From the NCBI GenBank assembly GCA_021740995.1, contig JAIOYR010000007.1, forward strand, positions 1 through 64,000: DNA of 64,000 nucleotides, given 5' to 3'. This DNA is from Taibaiella sp. GTDB taxonomy: Bacteria; Bacteroidota; Bacteroidia; Chitinophagales; Chitinophagaceae. Position numbers and translations under genes: made by a program. Numbering within the stretch: position 1 is the first letter of the stretch; the number at the start of each line of letters is the position of its first letter. A model generated the notes under the pieces. That model was not told the origin of the DNA. It saw nothing but the letters and a program-made list of their open reading frames with translations, and searched no databases. Positions 29,869-34,839 of this stretch are shown in pieces.

Positions 29869-30046
29869 AATGTAACATGAGCAGAAAGCTTGGGTAGATA
29901 GTAAGGGAATTCCCCTCCTTTTTTCAAGGAGTGGGATGCAGTAAAAAAGCGAAGGCTTTTTTACTGCTGGGGTGGTAAACTTACGGGTGTCTAATAATAC
30001 TTGTCAATGGCAGCCGCGCCGAACCGTGACATGCTCGGTTTATGTT
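29869..30046. repeat. Dispersed structured intergenic repeat, copy 2
   Basis: Shares GGGAATTCCCCTCCTTTTTT..., GTAAAAAAGCGAAG, CTGGGGTGGTAAA and TTACGGGT..TAATAATACTTGTCA with 5528-5700. Confidence 0.8.
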
Positions 30047-30403
30047 AGGTAGATAGGCACGTTTGCTCTATGCAGGTGCTTTTTATAATATACCGCTATC
30101 ATTTTTGTTATTATTGCATACGCCAAATAGCAGTATTGTCAAGAGAAGCGGACAAAAGTCGAACTTCTTTGTGAAAGATTTAGAAAAAATGCAGGCATTC
30201 TAAAGTTCGATTCCTCTTAGGGGCACAGATTACCCGATCTTCCCCGATTTTACTCTATAGGGTGCACATCGAATTACGAAACGCATTTGAGGAAATCTCA
30301 AAATGATTGAAAATACCGAAAATCAATAGCAACACATCCGTCTGTTTTACTCCATTACTCTAATCTACATTTTATTGCTCTAAATATGTAGCTTTGTCAA
30401 AAT

Positions 30404-30465
30404 GAAGACCGTCAGTGACGGGATCTTCTTTCTTGTTCGGGATGCATTGCGGAACTTCCCGTACA
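30404..30465. repeat. Tandem imperfect hairpins (REP-like), function unknown
   Basis: GAAGA-CCGTC-agt-GACGG-ga-TCTTC and TTGT-t-CGGGA...TCCCG-t-ACAA adjacent to each other. Confidence 0.45.
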
Positions 30466-30503
30466 ACGGAATCATTTCTAACACACTATTTCATTTCCAA
30501 TTA

Positions 30504-31421
30504 ATGAATAAACGAAAAAAAATTTGTAAAAATTGCTTTGATACTAAAGGAGATTTTCTATTCGTTTCTGGTGGAGATGGTAGATGTAAGATGTGCAAGG
30601 GTACGGGTATATCTCATGAATTAGGGGATAGTGCAGCAACCATCGTAACACTAGGTTTTATAAATTATAATCGCGAATGTCGGTATTGTTATGGCACAGG
30701 TCAATGCCAGACATGTGGCGGTACAGGTAGCATATACATAGAGAATGCGCCATACATTTCATACGACGAGCCAGAACCTATTCAAATAGATAAAGATTTG
30801 AATGAAAGTGAAGGTTTAGATAAAATCAATCCACATTACGATCCTTATGAGTTGGATGAAGAATGTGACTATTGTGATGGTACTGAACATTGTTCTTTTT
30901 GCGGTCGAAAAGGTGATGATCATTTTGAAGATATTGCTTATTCTGGTTATGAAAATAGCAGTAGTGCAAAATTTGATAAAAATTACCAAGATTATTTCGC
31001 AAACGAAATAAAAAATAGTAATGAATTTGACAGCACAATTGATACTAACACAAATTCGCACTATAAGGACAATCTTCATATAGACTTGACTGAGCTTCAA
31101 AAAAAAATAGAGAATAATGAAATTGAACTTAGTCAAGTTATTGAAAAAATCGACCTAAAAAAGAAAGACCTTCCAGGAGAAGCATTCTTATTATTTATAG
31201 TTTTTAGTTTTGTTGGGGGTTTTATTTCATATGCTATACAAGAGATACCCAAACACCCACCACATCAAATCAATTGGGGTGCAGTATATTTTATCGCAAT
31301 CTCGGGCATAGTTATATTTGTTTTTCTTCTTTTGTCTTATCTCGGTTCAAGATCTGAATTGTCCGATTTGAAAAAACGCAAACAAATATTAGATACGAAA
31401 AATACTAAATTAAAAAAATAA
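30504..31421 (+). CDS. Zinc-ribbon/DnaJ-type CxxC repeat protein with two C-terminal TM helices
   Basis: 'CKMCKGTG', 'CRYCYGTGQCQTCGGTG', 'CDYCDGTEHCSFCGRKG'; TM 'FLLFIVFSFVGGFISYAI' and 'AVYFIAISGIVIFVFLLLSYLG'. ATG at 30504 preferred over 30402. Confidence 0.7.
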   Translation: MNKRKKICKNCFDTKGDFLFVSGGDGRCKMCKGTGISHELGDSAATIVTLGFINYNRECRYCYGTGQCQTCGGTGSIYIENAPYISYDEPEPIQIDKDLNESEGLDKINPHYDPYELDEECDYCDGTEHCSFCGRKGDDHFEDIAYSGYENSSSAKFDKNYQDYFANEIKNSNEFDSTIDTNTNSHYKDNLHIDLTELQKKIENNEIELSQVIEKIDLKKKDLPGEAFLLFIVFSFVGGFISYAIQEIPKHPPHQINWGAVYFIAISGIVIFVFLLLSYLGSRSELSDLKKRKQILDTKNTKLKK

Positions 31422-31499
31422 TATAATAAAAATAAATTATATAAATGAGTGTTTGTTCAATATAATGTGATAACGGGTTTTGGTCGCTACTACCCTCTC

Positions 31500-31546
31500 G
31501 TCCTCGTTTGCAACGAGGATGCTACGGTAAAGCGTTTGTAACGCTT
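31500..31546. repeat. REP-like pair of hairpins
   Basis: TCCTCGTT-tgc-AACGAGGA (31501-31519) and AAGCGTT-tgt-AACGCTT (31530-31546). Confidence 0.6.
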
Positions 31547-31693
31547 CATTTCTATCTGAGTCCACATACCTTTCCATCCCTGATGTCGGTGGGTCTTGCG
31601 AAGGGCAAAGACCCGCAGAGGACAGAATCACAGGCTTTTCTTTCCTAATAGTGGTTTTCTTAGGCATGGTATAACGTTATGGAAATATAACTA

Positions 31694-31904
31694 TTAAGAA
31701 GTGCAGTTCTTAATAGTGTCGCAAACCTCGTAGCGCTCGTTTTTTATGGCATATTCCTGCGCCTCTTGAATTAGTTCACTCCACCATAATTTTTTTAAAA
31801 AAAAAACATCTGGTACTTTCTTCGTGCCCCATAAGCATATCAATCATCATCTCTAAAAACCCGTCATACAATTCATCAGACTTCAACTTATCAATAATAT
31901 CCAT
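31694..31904 (-). pseudogene. Small ORF interrupted by a one-nucleotide frameshift in a homopolymer tract
   Basis: From ATG 31904 the frame reads MDIIDKLKSDELYDGFLEMMIDMLMGHEESTRCFFFKK, then T10/A7; shifting by one nt continues as LWWSELIQEAQEYAIKNERYEVCDTIKNCTS* to 31694. Confidence 0.6.
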
Positions 31905-32129
31905 TTCTATCGTTTTAGCAAATTTACTTAAACATATTCAATATACAATAAATTCGTTTCGTATAAAATAACAAATATTATAAAGCATAATGTAAATAGC
32001 ATTTTCCAGAAAACTATACCTTCATAGGTTTTCCCGTAACTTTATGAAAGTTCTTTGAAAATCAGTTATATAAATTATACATCCAGTTTCAGTAAGATAT
32101 TTTATCTTGTAGCACTCCAAAAAAAAATT

Positions 32130-32960
32130 ATGGAACTGTTTTTTGCTAAACTGACGTATTCGGAAACCTTATTTATTGAAAATAGGTTGTCGAATAAAGA
32201 GTTAATATTGCTTGCCTTGACTAATGCAAGCATCGCTAAGTACAAAAAAAGCCAATTTATATTCATTGACATAGAGCCATATTCGGTTGGCGGAAACGAT
32301 TTTATCTATGGGAAGCTTGCTAAATATGGAGACATAGAAGAGACAATAGTAAACACCGAATCTCAAAAGACAGAAAGTGTATTAGTTGAGGATAAGATAA
32401 TAGCAAAATGTCATTTTATAATAGACTTTTCTGAAAATTATCTTCTATATACCGATGTGGTTAATCACATTAATAAGAACTCATTCATTGAAAAATTCAA
32501 TGACTTAATAGCATCTGGGGCGTCGGAAACTGGGTACAATATAGATGCTAGGGCGATTAATGAAGTGTATACATTTTATAAAAAAATTGAAGAGTTAAAA
32601 GAAATTATACAGATTGAATTAACCATAATTCCGACAAATCCAAACGCTATAGATATTATACAGGGTGTAGATAAAAAACTAAAGCTCCAAAATTTAAAAG
32701 AAAAGGTAATAAAATACAAAGGGAAAAAGGGTGGCATACAACTGGATGAAGAGATAAAAGCAAATACAATATACGCAGATGTAGGATATGGAACTGGAAA
32801 AGCTATTGGAATTGATAAAAATAATAAAAGGGTGACAGTATATTCCAAAAAATCCGAACGGCAAAAAAGAACACCCTCTTTTGATTCCGCTAATCTTAAC
32901 GGATATGGCATAGTTGAAAAAATAAATAAACTTTTGGACGATTTAAAACAGCAGGAATGA
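32130..32960 (+). CDS. Hypothetical soluble protein (first gene of an overlapping pair)
   Basis: 277 aa from ATG 32130, no TM or signal peptide apparent; stop overlaps the next start (ATGA). Confidence 0.7.
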   Translation: MELFFAKLTYSETLFIENRLSNKELILLALTNASIAKYKKSQFIFIDIEPYSVGGNDFIYGKLAKYGDIEETIVNTESQKTESVLVEDKIIAKCHFIIDFSENYLLYTDVVNHINKNSFIEKFNDLIASGASETGYNIDARAINEVYTFYKKIEELKEIIQIELTIIPTNPNAIDIIQGVDKKLKLQNLKEKVIKYKGKKGGIQLDEEIKANTIYADVGYGTGKAIGIDKNNKRVTVYSKKSERQKRTPSFDSANLNGYGIVEKINKLLDDLKQQE

Positions 32961-33481
32961 GAACTTTAATAAACAGATACATTGTAAGTTTAGATACCAT
33001 TGTGGCATTAATCGCCGTAATAATGGCATGTATATTCTTACCAGACACTATAACAAACAAATTTTGCACTACAGTTTACGGAATGGCAATAAATGTTTTA
33101 GCGATTGTGTTCTCTATATTTTTTGCTAGTCTTGCCGTAATAATGTCTTTTCCCGATAATGAATTTATAAGGTTTATTGAAGCAGAAGATAAATTGTTTT
33201 CTCAATTACTTGGGTATTTTCGAGATACCTTATTTGCTTTGTTTGTGTCTTTGGTTTCTACAATCATAATATACATAATTACAGCTTATTTAACGGACAC
33301 AGGCATAGCAGATAGAAAGGTATTCATTTTCTTTTGCTTCATTTTTACTTATAGTCTCGTATCAACTATAACAGCCGTAGATGTAGCACTAAAGATAACT
33401 GGCAGCAGGGCAACGTATTTAATAAACAGAAAGGAACCAAAATCAGATAGTGAGCTTGATTCAGAAGAAGTAAATGAGTAA
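32957..33481 (+). CDS. Hypothetical membrane protein with four predicted TM helices (second gene of the pair)
   Basis: Hydrophobic segments near residues 9-29, 41-64, 89-111 and 122-144; acidic C-terminus. Confidence 0.7.
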   Translation: MRTLINRYIVSLDTIVALIAVIMACIFLPDTITNKFCTTVYGMAINVLAIVFSIFFASLAVIMSFPDNEFIRFIEAEDKLFSQLLGYFRDTLFALFVSLVSTIIIYIITAYLTDTGIADRKVFIFFCFIFTYSLVSTITAVDVALKITGSRATYLINRKEPKSDSELDSEEVNE

Positions 33482-33508: not shown

Positions 33509-33529
33509 CGCCAGTGTTTTTCACTGGCG
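33509..33529. terminator. Hairpin after the two-gene cassette
   Basis: CGCCAGTG-ttttt-CACTGGCG, 28 nt after the stop at 33481; no following T-run. Confidence 0.45.
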
Positions 33530-34008
33530 AAATCACACCCTGCCATAAAATCAATTTCACCCATTCTGGCACGGCATTTGTGGGATATATCATGGTAGTC
33601 ATTTCAGCAAATGACAACCTGATTTTTTTTCATTAACAGAAACCGGAAAAAGCAAACAAGACCCTTACCTGCATTGCCTTTTCATCAGTTCCGGGTTCTG
33701 AAAAGTCGGAAAATGTCAGAATGTGGCTCGGAAAAAACCAGTAACAGCACGGTCTTCCCATTCCCAAATTTGTGGATATCTTACGCTGCCATTACTGCCA
33801 TTTCGGTGATTCTTGGCACACATTTTGCGGCACTATTATGCCGTTAGTTTGTCGGCACATTACATCAAGTCCGTTTTTATCGTGCAAATCAAACCATTTC
33901 ATTATAAAAATTAAATATAACAAAAATTACGCGCGCAAAAGTGCGCAATTTTTGCGCAAGAATCTGAGGCCAATAAAAAGTTAATCAACTGAATTTCAAT
34001 CACTTAAA

Positions 34009-34065
34009 CCTAAAACCATGAGAATAAAAAATTCTAAACAAAAGTGCGCAATTTTCCTCCGGGGT
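34009..34065 (+). repeat. 57-bp direct repeat, copy 1
   Basis: 54/57 identical to 34474-34530; contains ATGAGAATAAAAA and AAAAGTGCGCAATTTTCCTCCGGGGT. Confidence 0.9.
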
Positions 34066-34253
34066 AAATAAATTGAGGTTATGTCCTAGCCGTGTCTCCG
34101 GCTTTTTCTGCCGTGACCCGGCGACACTTGCCTACCGCAGGCAGGTCAAGGCTCCGAAGCCGGAAAAATATTCATCAACTATATATCCCTGATATACGCC
34201 GGGTCCCTGAAAAAGGAGACCCGGCTACGACGGATTTCTTTTAGTTTTGCGCA

Positions 34254-34439
34254 GTGTGGCGTTCAAAGTATTCTTATTTGAAAATATTTCTTGGGATCAT
34301 CTTAATGATTGGCACTGCGAGAACATTTAATGAGTTCCATCAGGACCCATCAGCCACCACAGCTATGTATTGCGGCTCGGGAGCCGCTGGAATTTTAGGG
34401 TTGTATTTATTTTTGAAAGGTATCTTGTCGTCTAAGTAA
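34254..34439 (+). CDS. Small hypothetical membrane protein (GTG start)
   Basis: 61-aa ORF with hydrophobic stretches, between the two 57-bp repeats. Confidence 0.35.
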   Translation: MWRSKYSYLKIFLGIILMIGTARTFNEFHQDPSATTAMYCGSGAAGILGLYLFLKGILSSK

Positions 34440-34473
34440 AACAAAACACCTGCGTGTAACTGGGTATTGTTAC

Positions 34474-34530
34474 CCTAAAACCATGAGAATAAAAAAATCT
34501 CAGCAAAAGTGCGCAATTTTCCTCCGGGGT
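34474..34530 (+). repeat. 57-bp direct repeat, copy 2
   Basis: See copy 1 at 34009-34065. Confidence 0.9.
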
Positions 34531-34839
34531 GCCGGGCTACTGTATAGAAAACAGAATTTTCAGGGTGATCATGTTGCTACTTTTACATGAACTTTGTCAA
34601 CGCTACTATCATTACCACACGAGCGAAAACTCAATCCTAACTTTAGTCAAGCTTTGTGTCCCTTGTGTCCTTTGTGGTTAATTTTTTTATCTTCCCGCTT
34701 GTGGTCATGTTTGGAGCATATGCCATAGCGCGTTTACCTTCACGCATTTCACTTACTGTTACAATTATGCAAATCACCCGCAGAGGGTGAACAGATGCTG
34801 GCTATCCGCTGATACATTTGGATAGTCAACCACTCGCCC

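Follow-up and report, generated by a model that had tools for sequence, protein, structure and literature searches.

Two overlapping genes of a Taibaiella species (Bacteroidota), located at positions 32,130 to 33,481 of the window (the whole 64,000-nucleotide stretch of DNA that was analysed), may with moderate confidence be regarded as an anti-phage system that was acquired horizontally and shares the two-gene architecture of RexAB. The pair is probably an undescribed relative or look-alike of the RexA/RexB suicide defence of phage lambda, because its two genes travel together between distant bacteria and have been found several times beside antivirus genes. It probably works like RexAB, though it is not filed as RexAB. 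The features on which this reading is built are the following:

30402..33481, no strand assigned: AT-rich insert with a GC content of about 0.32, flanked on one side by the conserved genes vWA and GNAT and on the other by an outer membrane gene of TonB type
32130..32960, plus strand: gene 1, open reading frame from ATG 32130 to TGA 32958-32960, soluble protein of 276 aa
32957..32960, plus strand: ATGA stop/start overlap of gene 1 and gene 2, read from the sequence, with translational coupling inferred
32957..33481, plus strand: gene 2, open reading frame from ATG 32957 to TAA 33481, protein of 174 aa with four transmembrane (TM) segments
33509..33529, plus strand: hairpin with an 8-bp perfect stem and a 5-nt loop, 28 bp 3′ of gene 2

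The two genes form an operon whose outline had been given in an earlier note on this DNA as a soluble protein of 277 aa followed, through a 4-bp ATGA overlap, by a 174-aa protein with four TM helices. The overlap is found as described, and both the reading frame and the hydropathy profile of gene 2 agree with the note, the TM segments spanning residues 9-27, 47-65, 92-110 and 122-140 and leaving loops of 19, 26 and 11 aa between them. Gene 1 shows zero TM segments by hydropathy and is indeed soluble, its length being corrected to 276 aa since the figure of 277 includes the stop codon; an alternative in-frame start, TTG at 32055, would extend it to 301 aa. The N- and C-termini of gene 2 and its central loop (residues 66-91, 26 aa) are predicted to be cytoplasmic, with a charge pattern that fits. 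Single-sequence AlphaFold2 models gave no usable fold for gene 1 (pLDDT 36), and long helices at residues 12-27, 31-64, 67-115 and 120-157 for gene 2, at low confidence (pLDDT 61, pTM 0.38). The hairpin that had been proposed to close the pair has an exact stem (CGCCAGTG-TTTTT-CACTGGCG, with an RNA folding energy of about -14.8 kcal/mol), but it is not a canonical intrinsic terminator, because it is followed by GAAATC instead of a T run; it remains a possible transcript end. The description of the pair as alone on its strand was loose, as the flanking genes are also on the plus strand, with a gap of 709 bp on the upstream side and of about 1.36 kb on the downstream side.

Both reading frames have side-by-side homologues in other bacteria, which, as judged by sequence comparison, places the pair far beyond chance. 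A tblastn search of plasmids with gene 1 matched a single record, that of a 27-kb plasmid from Picosynechococcus sp. PCC 8807 (E = 1e-4), in which a four-TM homologue of gene 2 lies 11 bp 3′ of the gene-1 homologue (29% identity with gene 2 of the window over 162 residues, E = 3e-22 in a single comparison); a separate plasmid search with gene 2 led to this same record and to no other. A two-protein gene-1 profile reached three further Bacteroidota genomes, G359 (2.7e-47), G307 (5.8e-25) and G505 (6.5e-14), and a five-sequence profile a contig-edge fragment in G824. The gene-1 homologues are thus five in total, four in other Bacteroidota genomes (one of them the fragment) and one on the cyanobacterial plasmid, with pairwise E values down to 2.9e-19. 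At all five of these loci, a small number, a membrane-protein gene lies directly 3′ of the gene-1 homologue, in keeping with the co-conservation that had been expected of the pair, and the two genes overlap by 4 bp in G307 and G505 (L008 and L009), by 11 bp in G359 and by up to 44 bp in G824. In the reverse direction, a gene-2 profile run over 208 genomes recovered only G000 and G359, both of which also carry gene 1.

Two subfamilies can be distinguished, the first made up of the window pair, Picosynechococcus and G359, and the second of G307 and G505, whose gene 2 aligns weakly to that of the first. TM2 and the central loop are the most conserved part of gene 2, with mean pairwise identities in the core of the first subfamily of 60% and 46%, respectively, whereas the best-conserved blocks of gene 1 are F-IYG-LAKY (58-66), PxNPN..DI..VD (168-181) and A--GYG-----G (216-227). 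Members of the distant subfamily show three TM segments in gene 2 at the cut-off used, as does gp43 of phage CarolAnn, which was published as having four. The fragment in G824 belongs to a very distant contig-edge pair (L016, contig C57, positions 1-997), in which the C-terminal portion of a relative of gene 1 (E 3.5e-4) is accompanied by a 186-aa hydrophobic, membrane-type protein, and suggests that the family is wider than the present profiles reach. Three marginal matches from a first order-level search (L002-L004, E 0.002-0.006) were set aside; the match in L002 is to the gene of a redox-like protein of lipoprotein type, and L004 has a broken reading frame. Overall, profile scans amounting to 1,298 genome look-ups, in samples that overlap, hit 5 distinct genomes, and two scans of genome contigs gave no relatives. 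This is a real, conserved and mobile two-gene family, described by none of the libraries used.

Genes of known antiviral type lie near several of the relatives. The pair of Picosynechococcus is embedded in a DNA-phosphorothioation locus with dndE, dndD and an HNH endonuclease gene around it, and a methyltransferase associated with phosphorothioation comes further along. The G307 pair precedes a gene of NYN nuclease type and two TIR genes with matches to ThsB models, and about 5 kb from the G505 pair there is a gene that matches the model of a CBASS TIR effector; these are few loci, picked by eye rather than by an enrichment statistic. The G307 cluster directly 3′ of the pair (L011, 9525-13370), which encodes the NYN nuclease, two small ThsB-like TIR proteins and a 546-aa protein without a Pfam match, is possibly a defence island. 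The window pair has no recognised defence gene beside it.

The local context in the window points to a mobile origin. The GC content of the pair is 0.318 and that of the region of the upstream gene (30402-31421) 0.335, as compared with 0.473 and 0.457 in the flanks, and the whole AT-rich insert has probably been acquired horizontally. The vWA gene and the GNAT gene that follows it are kept upstream in 5 of the 6 sister species examined, the exception being G957, where the vWA gene is present and the GNAT gene was not found. The DNA 3′ of these two genes is different in each sister species, for which reason the pair appears to lie in a variable, probably acquired stretch; for the same reason, a comparison with an empty site in the sister species was without result. 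DNA matching the pair was found in none of the 34 other genomes of the genus, where only the repeats and some short pieces of the island recur. In G957, genes for a C5 DNA methyltransferase and an ATPase of histidine-kinase type come after the same vWA gene, together with two others (L052, contig C30, 6075-9905), so that the region after the vWA gene is possibly a hotspot for defence genes. No tRNA gene lies near the pair, the sole one between 22 and 44 kb being a tRNA-Trp at 43.8 kb.

The repeat-rich nature of the island, also proposed beforehand, is confirmed by sequences at about 29,890-30,050, 31,493-31,545 and 33,775-34,625 that recur in the genome or the genus. The first two are dispersed intergenic repeats that look like REP-type elements, the second being palindrome-rich, about 52 bp long and found with numerous copies throughout the genus. 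The sequence AAAAGTGCGCAATTTT occurs in three exact copies on the plus strand (33937, 34040 and 34505; 0 expected) in the DNA that separates gene 2 from the outer membrane gene, two of them within 57-bp direct repeats. The same AT-rich insert also carries, at 30402-31421 on the plus strand, a gene whose 339-aa product has several CxxC motifs of zinc-ribbon kind (DnaJ-like CxxCxGxG), is hydrophobic in segments of its C-terminal part and gives a weak PADLOC match to the candidate PDC-M01B (E 2e-5). It was rejected as a third component, as it lies 709 bp away and nothing similar was seen beside the homologous pairs.

The resemblance in size, order and topology to lambda RexA/RexB that had first drawn attention to the pair holds on closer comparison. 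In both systems the first gene encodes a soluble protein of roughly 280 aa and the next one a small protein with four TM segments (279 and 144 aa in lambda, 276 and 174 aa here), both ends of the membrane protein being predicted inside and the loop lengths being similar. They differ in the longer central loop and the acidic C-terminal tail of gene 2; moreover, the window pair has neither a cI-type repressor alongside nor, as far as seen in the window, any adjoining phage gene, is absent from phage records and shows no sequence match to the lambda proteins. The layout of a soluble and a four-TM protein encoded by overlapping genes is also shared with the DUF4747-type, RexAB-like pairs CarolAnn gp44/gp43 and Sbash gp30/gp31, both proven to be anti-phage (PMC6426606, PMC6426596), although CarolAnn gp44 has 370 aa against the 276 of gene 1. 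CarolAnn gp44 is a published RexA homologue that binds DNA (PMC11077077) and is weakly linked to DUF4747 by HHpred (PMC6426606), and DUF4747/CarolAnn operons have been counted as bacterial immune operons (PMC13373217). The pairs of Sbash and of mycobacteriophage Butters likewise lack an adjacent repressor (PMC11077077). Set beside the window pair by description, the sequence-divergent RexApp/RexBpp of Pseudomonas putida (PP_5643/PP_5644) shares the layout with a four-TM partner, but is prophage-borne and adjoins a repressor, whereas Butters gp30/gp31 offers another defence pair of a soluble and a four-TM protein. The layout alone is already suggestive, because RexAB-type pairs with divergent sequences have proved to be anti-phage (PMC12894663, PMC6426606, PMC6426596).

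Sequence searches did not assign the pair to any family. Neither gene 1 nor gene 2 found one in Pfam, NCBIfam, PHROGs, PADLOC or the PDB sequences, weak matches to Ta0938, TcpE and SsdA being under any usable cut-off, and no recognised enzymatic motif was seen in gene 1, as the earlier note had stated. The RexA and RexB models (PF15969/PF15968 and PADLOC RexA) matched neither the two proteins nor the four best homologue pairs, lambda RexA as a control scoring 327 bits in Pfam and 364 in PADLOC. Similarly, hmmscan with an E limit of 1 listed no DUF4747 (PF15931) for gene 1 or for four homologues, CarolAnn gp44 itself matching nothing in Pfam when the limit was relaxed to 10, and a search for DUF4747 in the genomes of the relatives, run without a positive control, found none. 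Profile comparison with alignments of four RexA and three RexB sequences gave no signal, 62 of 100 column-shuffled RexA profiles scoring as high as the real one, and comparison with CarolAnn gp44 and gp43 showed no similarity; the method must be regarded as insensitive, because RexA against its published homologue gp44 was equally silent. No match to the pair was found in phage records or viral contigs (part of the viral-contig scans being checked by profile search), and the best viral-contig matches, L030 and L038, were discarded as chance matches to the short GYG motif. RexA itself has a fold made of a split globular domain and a dimerisation domain, forms a dimer and binds DNA. By eye, the order of strands and helices predicted for gene 1 may be matched to that of RexA, which would put the PxNPN block near RexA IVIKPK and the C-terminal helix near alpha-8. 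The candidacy of the pair as an undescribed anti-phage system of RexAB kind is therefore partly supported, namely by architecture, co-conservation and context, and the word undescribed holds for the libraries used here, none of which has a matching family.

In the lambda, CarolAnn, Sbash and P. putida systems, the four-TM protein is switched on by a soluble partner that binds DNA (PMC11077077, PMC6426606, PMC6426596, PMC12894663). By analogy, gene 1 is probably the infection sensor, or RexA-like component, and gene 2 the membrane effector, probably a pore or channel. Gene 1 would act in the cytoplasm as the sensor of some infection product, which might be DNA or DNA complexed with protein, following what has been proposed for RexA, and, once triggered, would dock on gene 2 at its conserved central loop in the cytoplasm. 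This docking site is suggested because TM2 and the central loop are the best-preserved region of the protein and because substitutions in the central loop of Sbash gp31 abolish defence (PMC6426596). Gene 2 would be an oligomeric four-helix protein of the inner membrane that permeabilises it when engaged, so that growth would stop before the phage matures (abortive infection). In P. putida, over-expression of RexApp leads to a growth arrest that depends on RexBpp and to membrane damage, apparently with no depolarisation in that test, and the membrane partner alone is harmless, RexA being required for the arrest (PMC12894663).

Several observations count against the RexAB type. No sequence relation to RexA, RexB or CarolAnn gp44/gp43 is detectable, the model of gene 1 gives no usable fold, and the pair was not seen in phage records or viral contigs, whereas the published systems are mostly prophage genes; moreover, the association with defence genes comes from the few relatives and not from the window. 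We regard it as a doubtful though serious possibility that the pair founds a separate chromosome- and plasmid-borne lineage of defence by a sensor and a four-TM protein, in which the fold of gene 1 is unrelated to that of RexA and the RexAB layout was invented independently, possibly for sensing something other than bare DNA, one member being located in a DNA-phosphorothioation locus. The roles of the two proteins might also be reversed, as in Butters, whose soluble and four-TM proteins have the same layout and where, in contrast to the scheme proposed here, the soluble gp30 is the effector, blocking infection on its own and being attenuated by gp31 (PMC7542560). The soluble protein would then be the anti-phage effector, tethered or restrained at the membrane by its partner, and the sequences of the window do not fix which of the two acts. 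We consider this unlikely, given that gene 1 has no catalytic motif or family match and that the conserved TM2 and central loop fit an active membrane component, even though a docking site would look alike.

Two further explanations dispense with phage defence altogether. Overlapping genes, a mobile distribution and one home on a plasmid are what could be expected from a toxin-antitoxin or addiction module, in which a membrane toxin silenced by the soluble protein would stabilise mobile DNA; such a module is quite improbable, as the soluble partner is large (276 aa) and has several conserved blocks, unlike typical antitoxins, and no toxin or antitoxin match appears in PADLOC, Pfam or NCBIfam. 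An ordinary accessory function at the membrane, such as signalling, transport or envelope stress, would agree with four-TM proteins being common and with the lack of any direct sign of defence in this genome. It is likewise improbable, since a very sparse distribution across phyla and a repeated proximity to defence genes are unlike a core envelope function. The anti-phage reading of the RexAB type, in turn, fits this sparse distribution, the low GC content and the defence-gene neighbours of the relatives.

RexAB has been studied for decades, mainly as a curiosity of phage lambda, and to our knowledge only a few divergent relatives have been proven, nearly all of them in prophages. If the proposal is true, the novelty would lie in a RexAB layout carried by a non-prophage, cross-phylum pair, and immunity through a soluble sensor and a four-TM effector would be a wider bacterial strategy, missed by the present defence libraries. 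In that case, the conserved central loop of gene 2 would offer a concrete site for testing how such a sensor opens its membrane partner.
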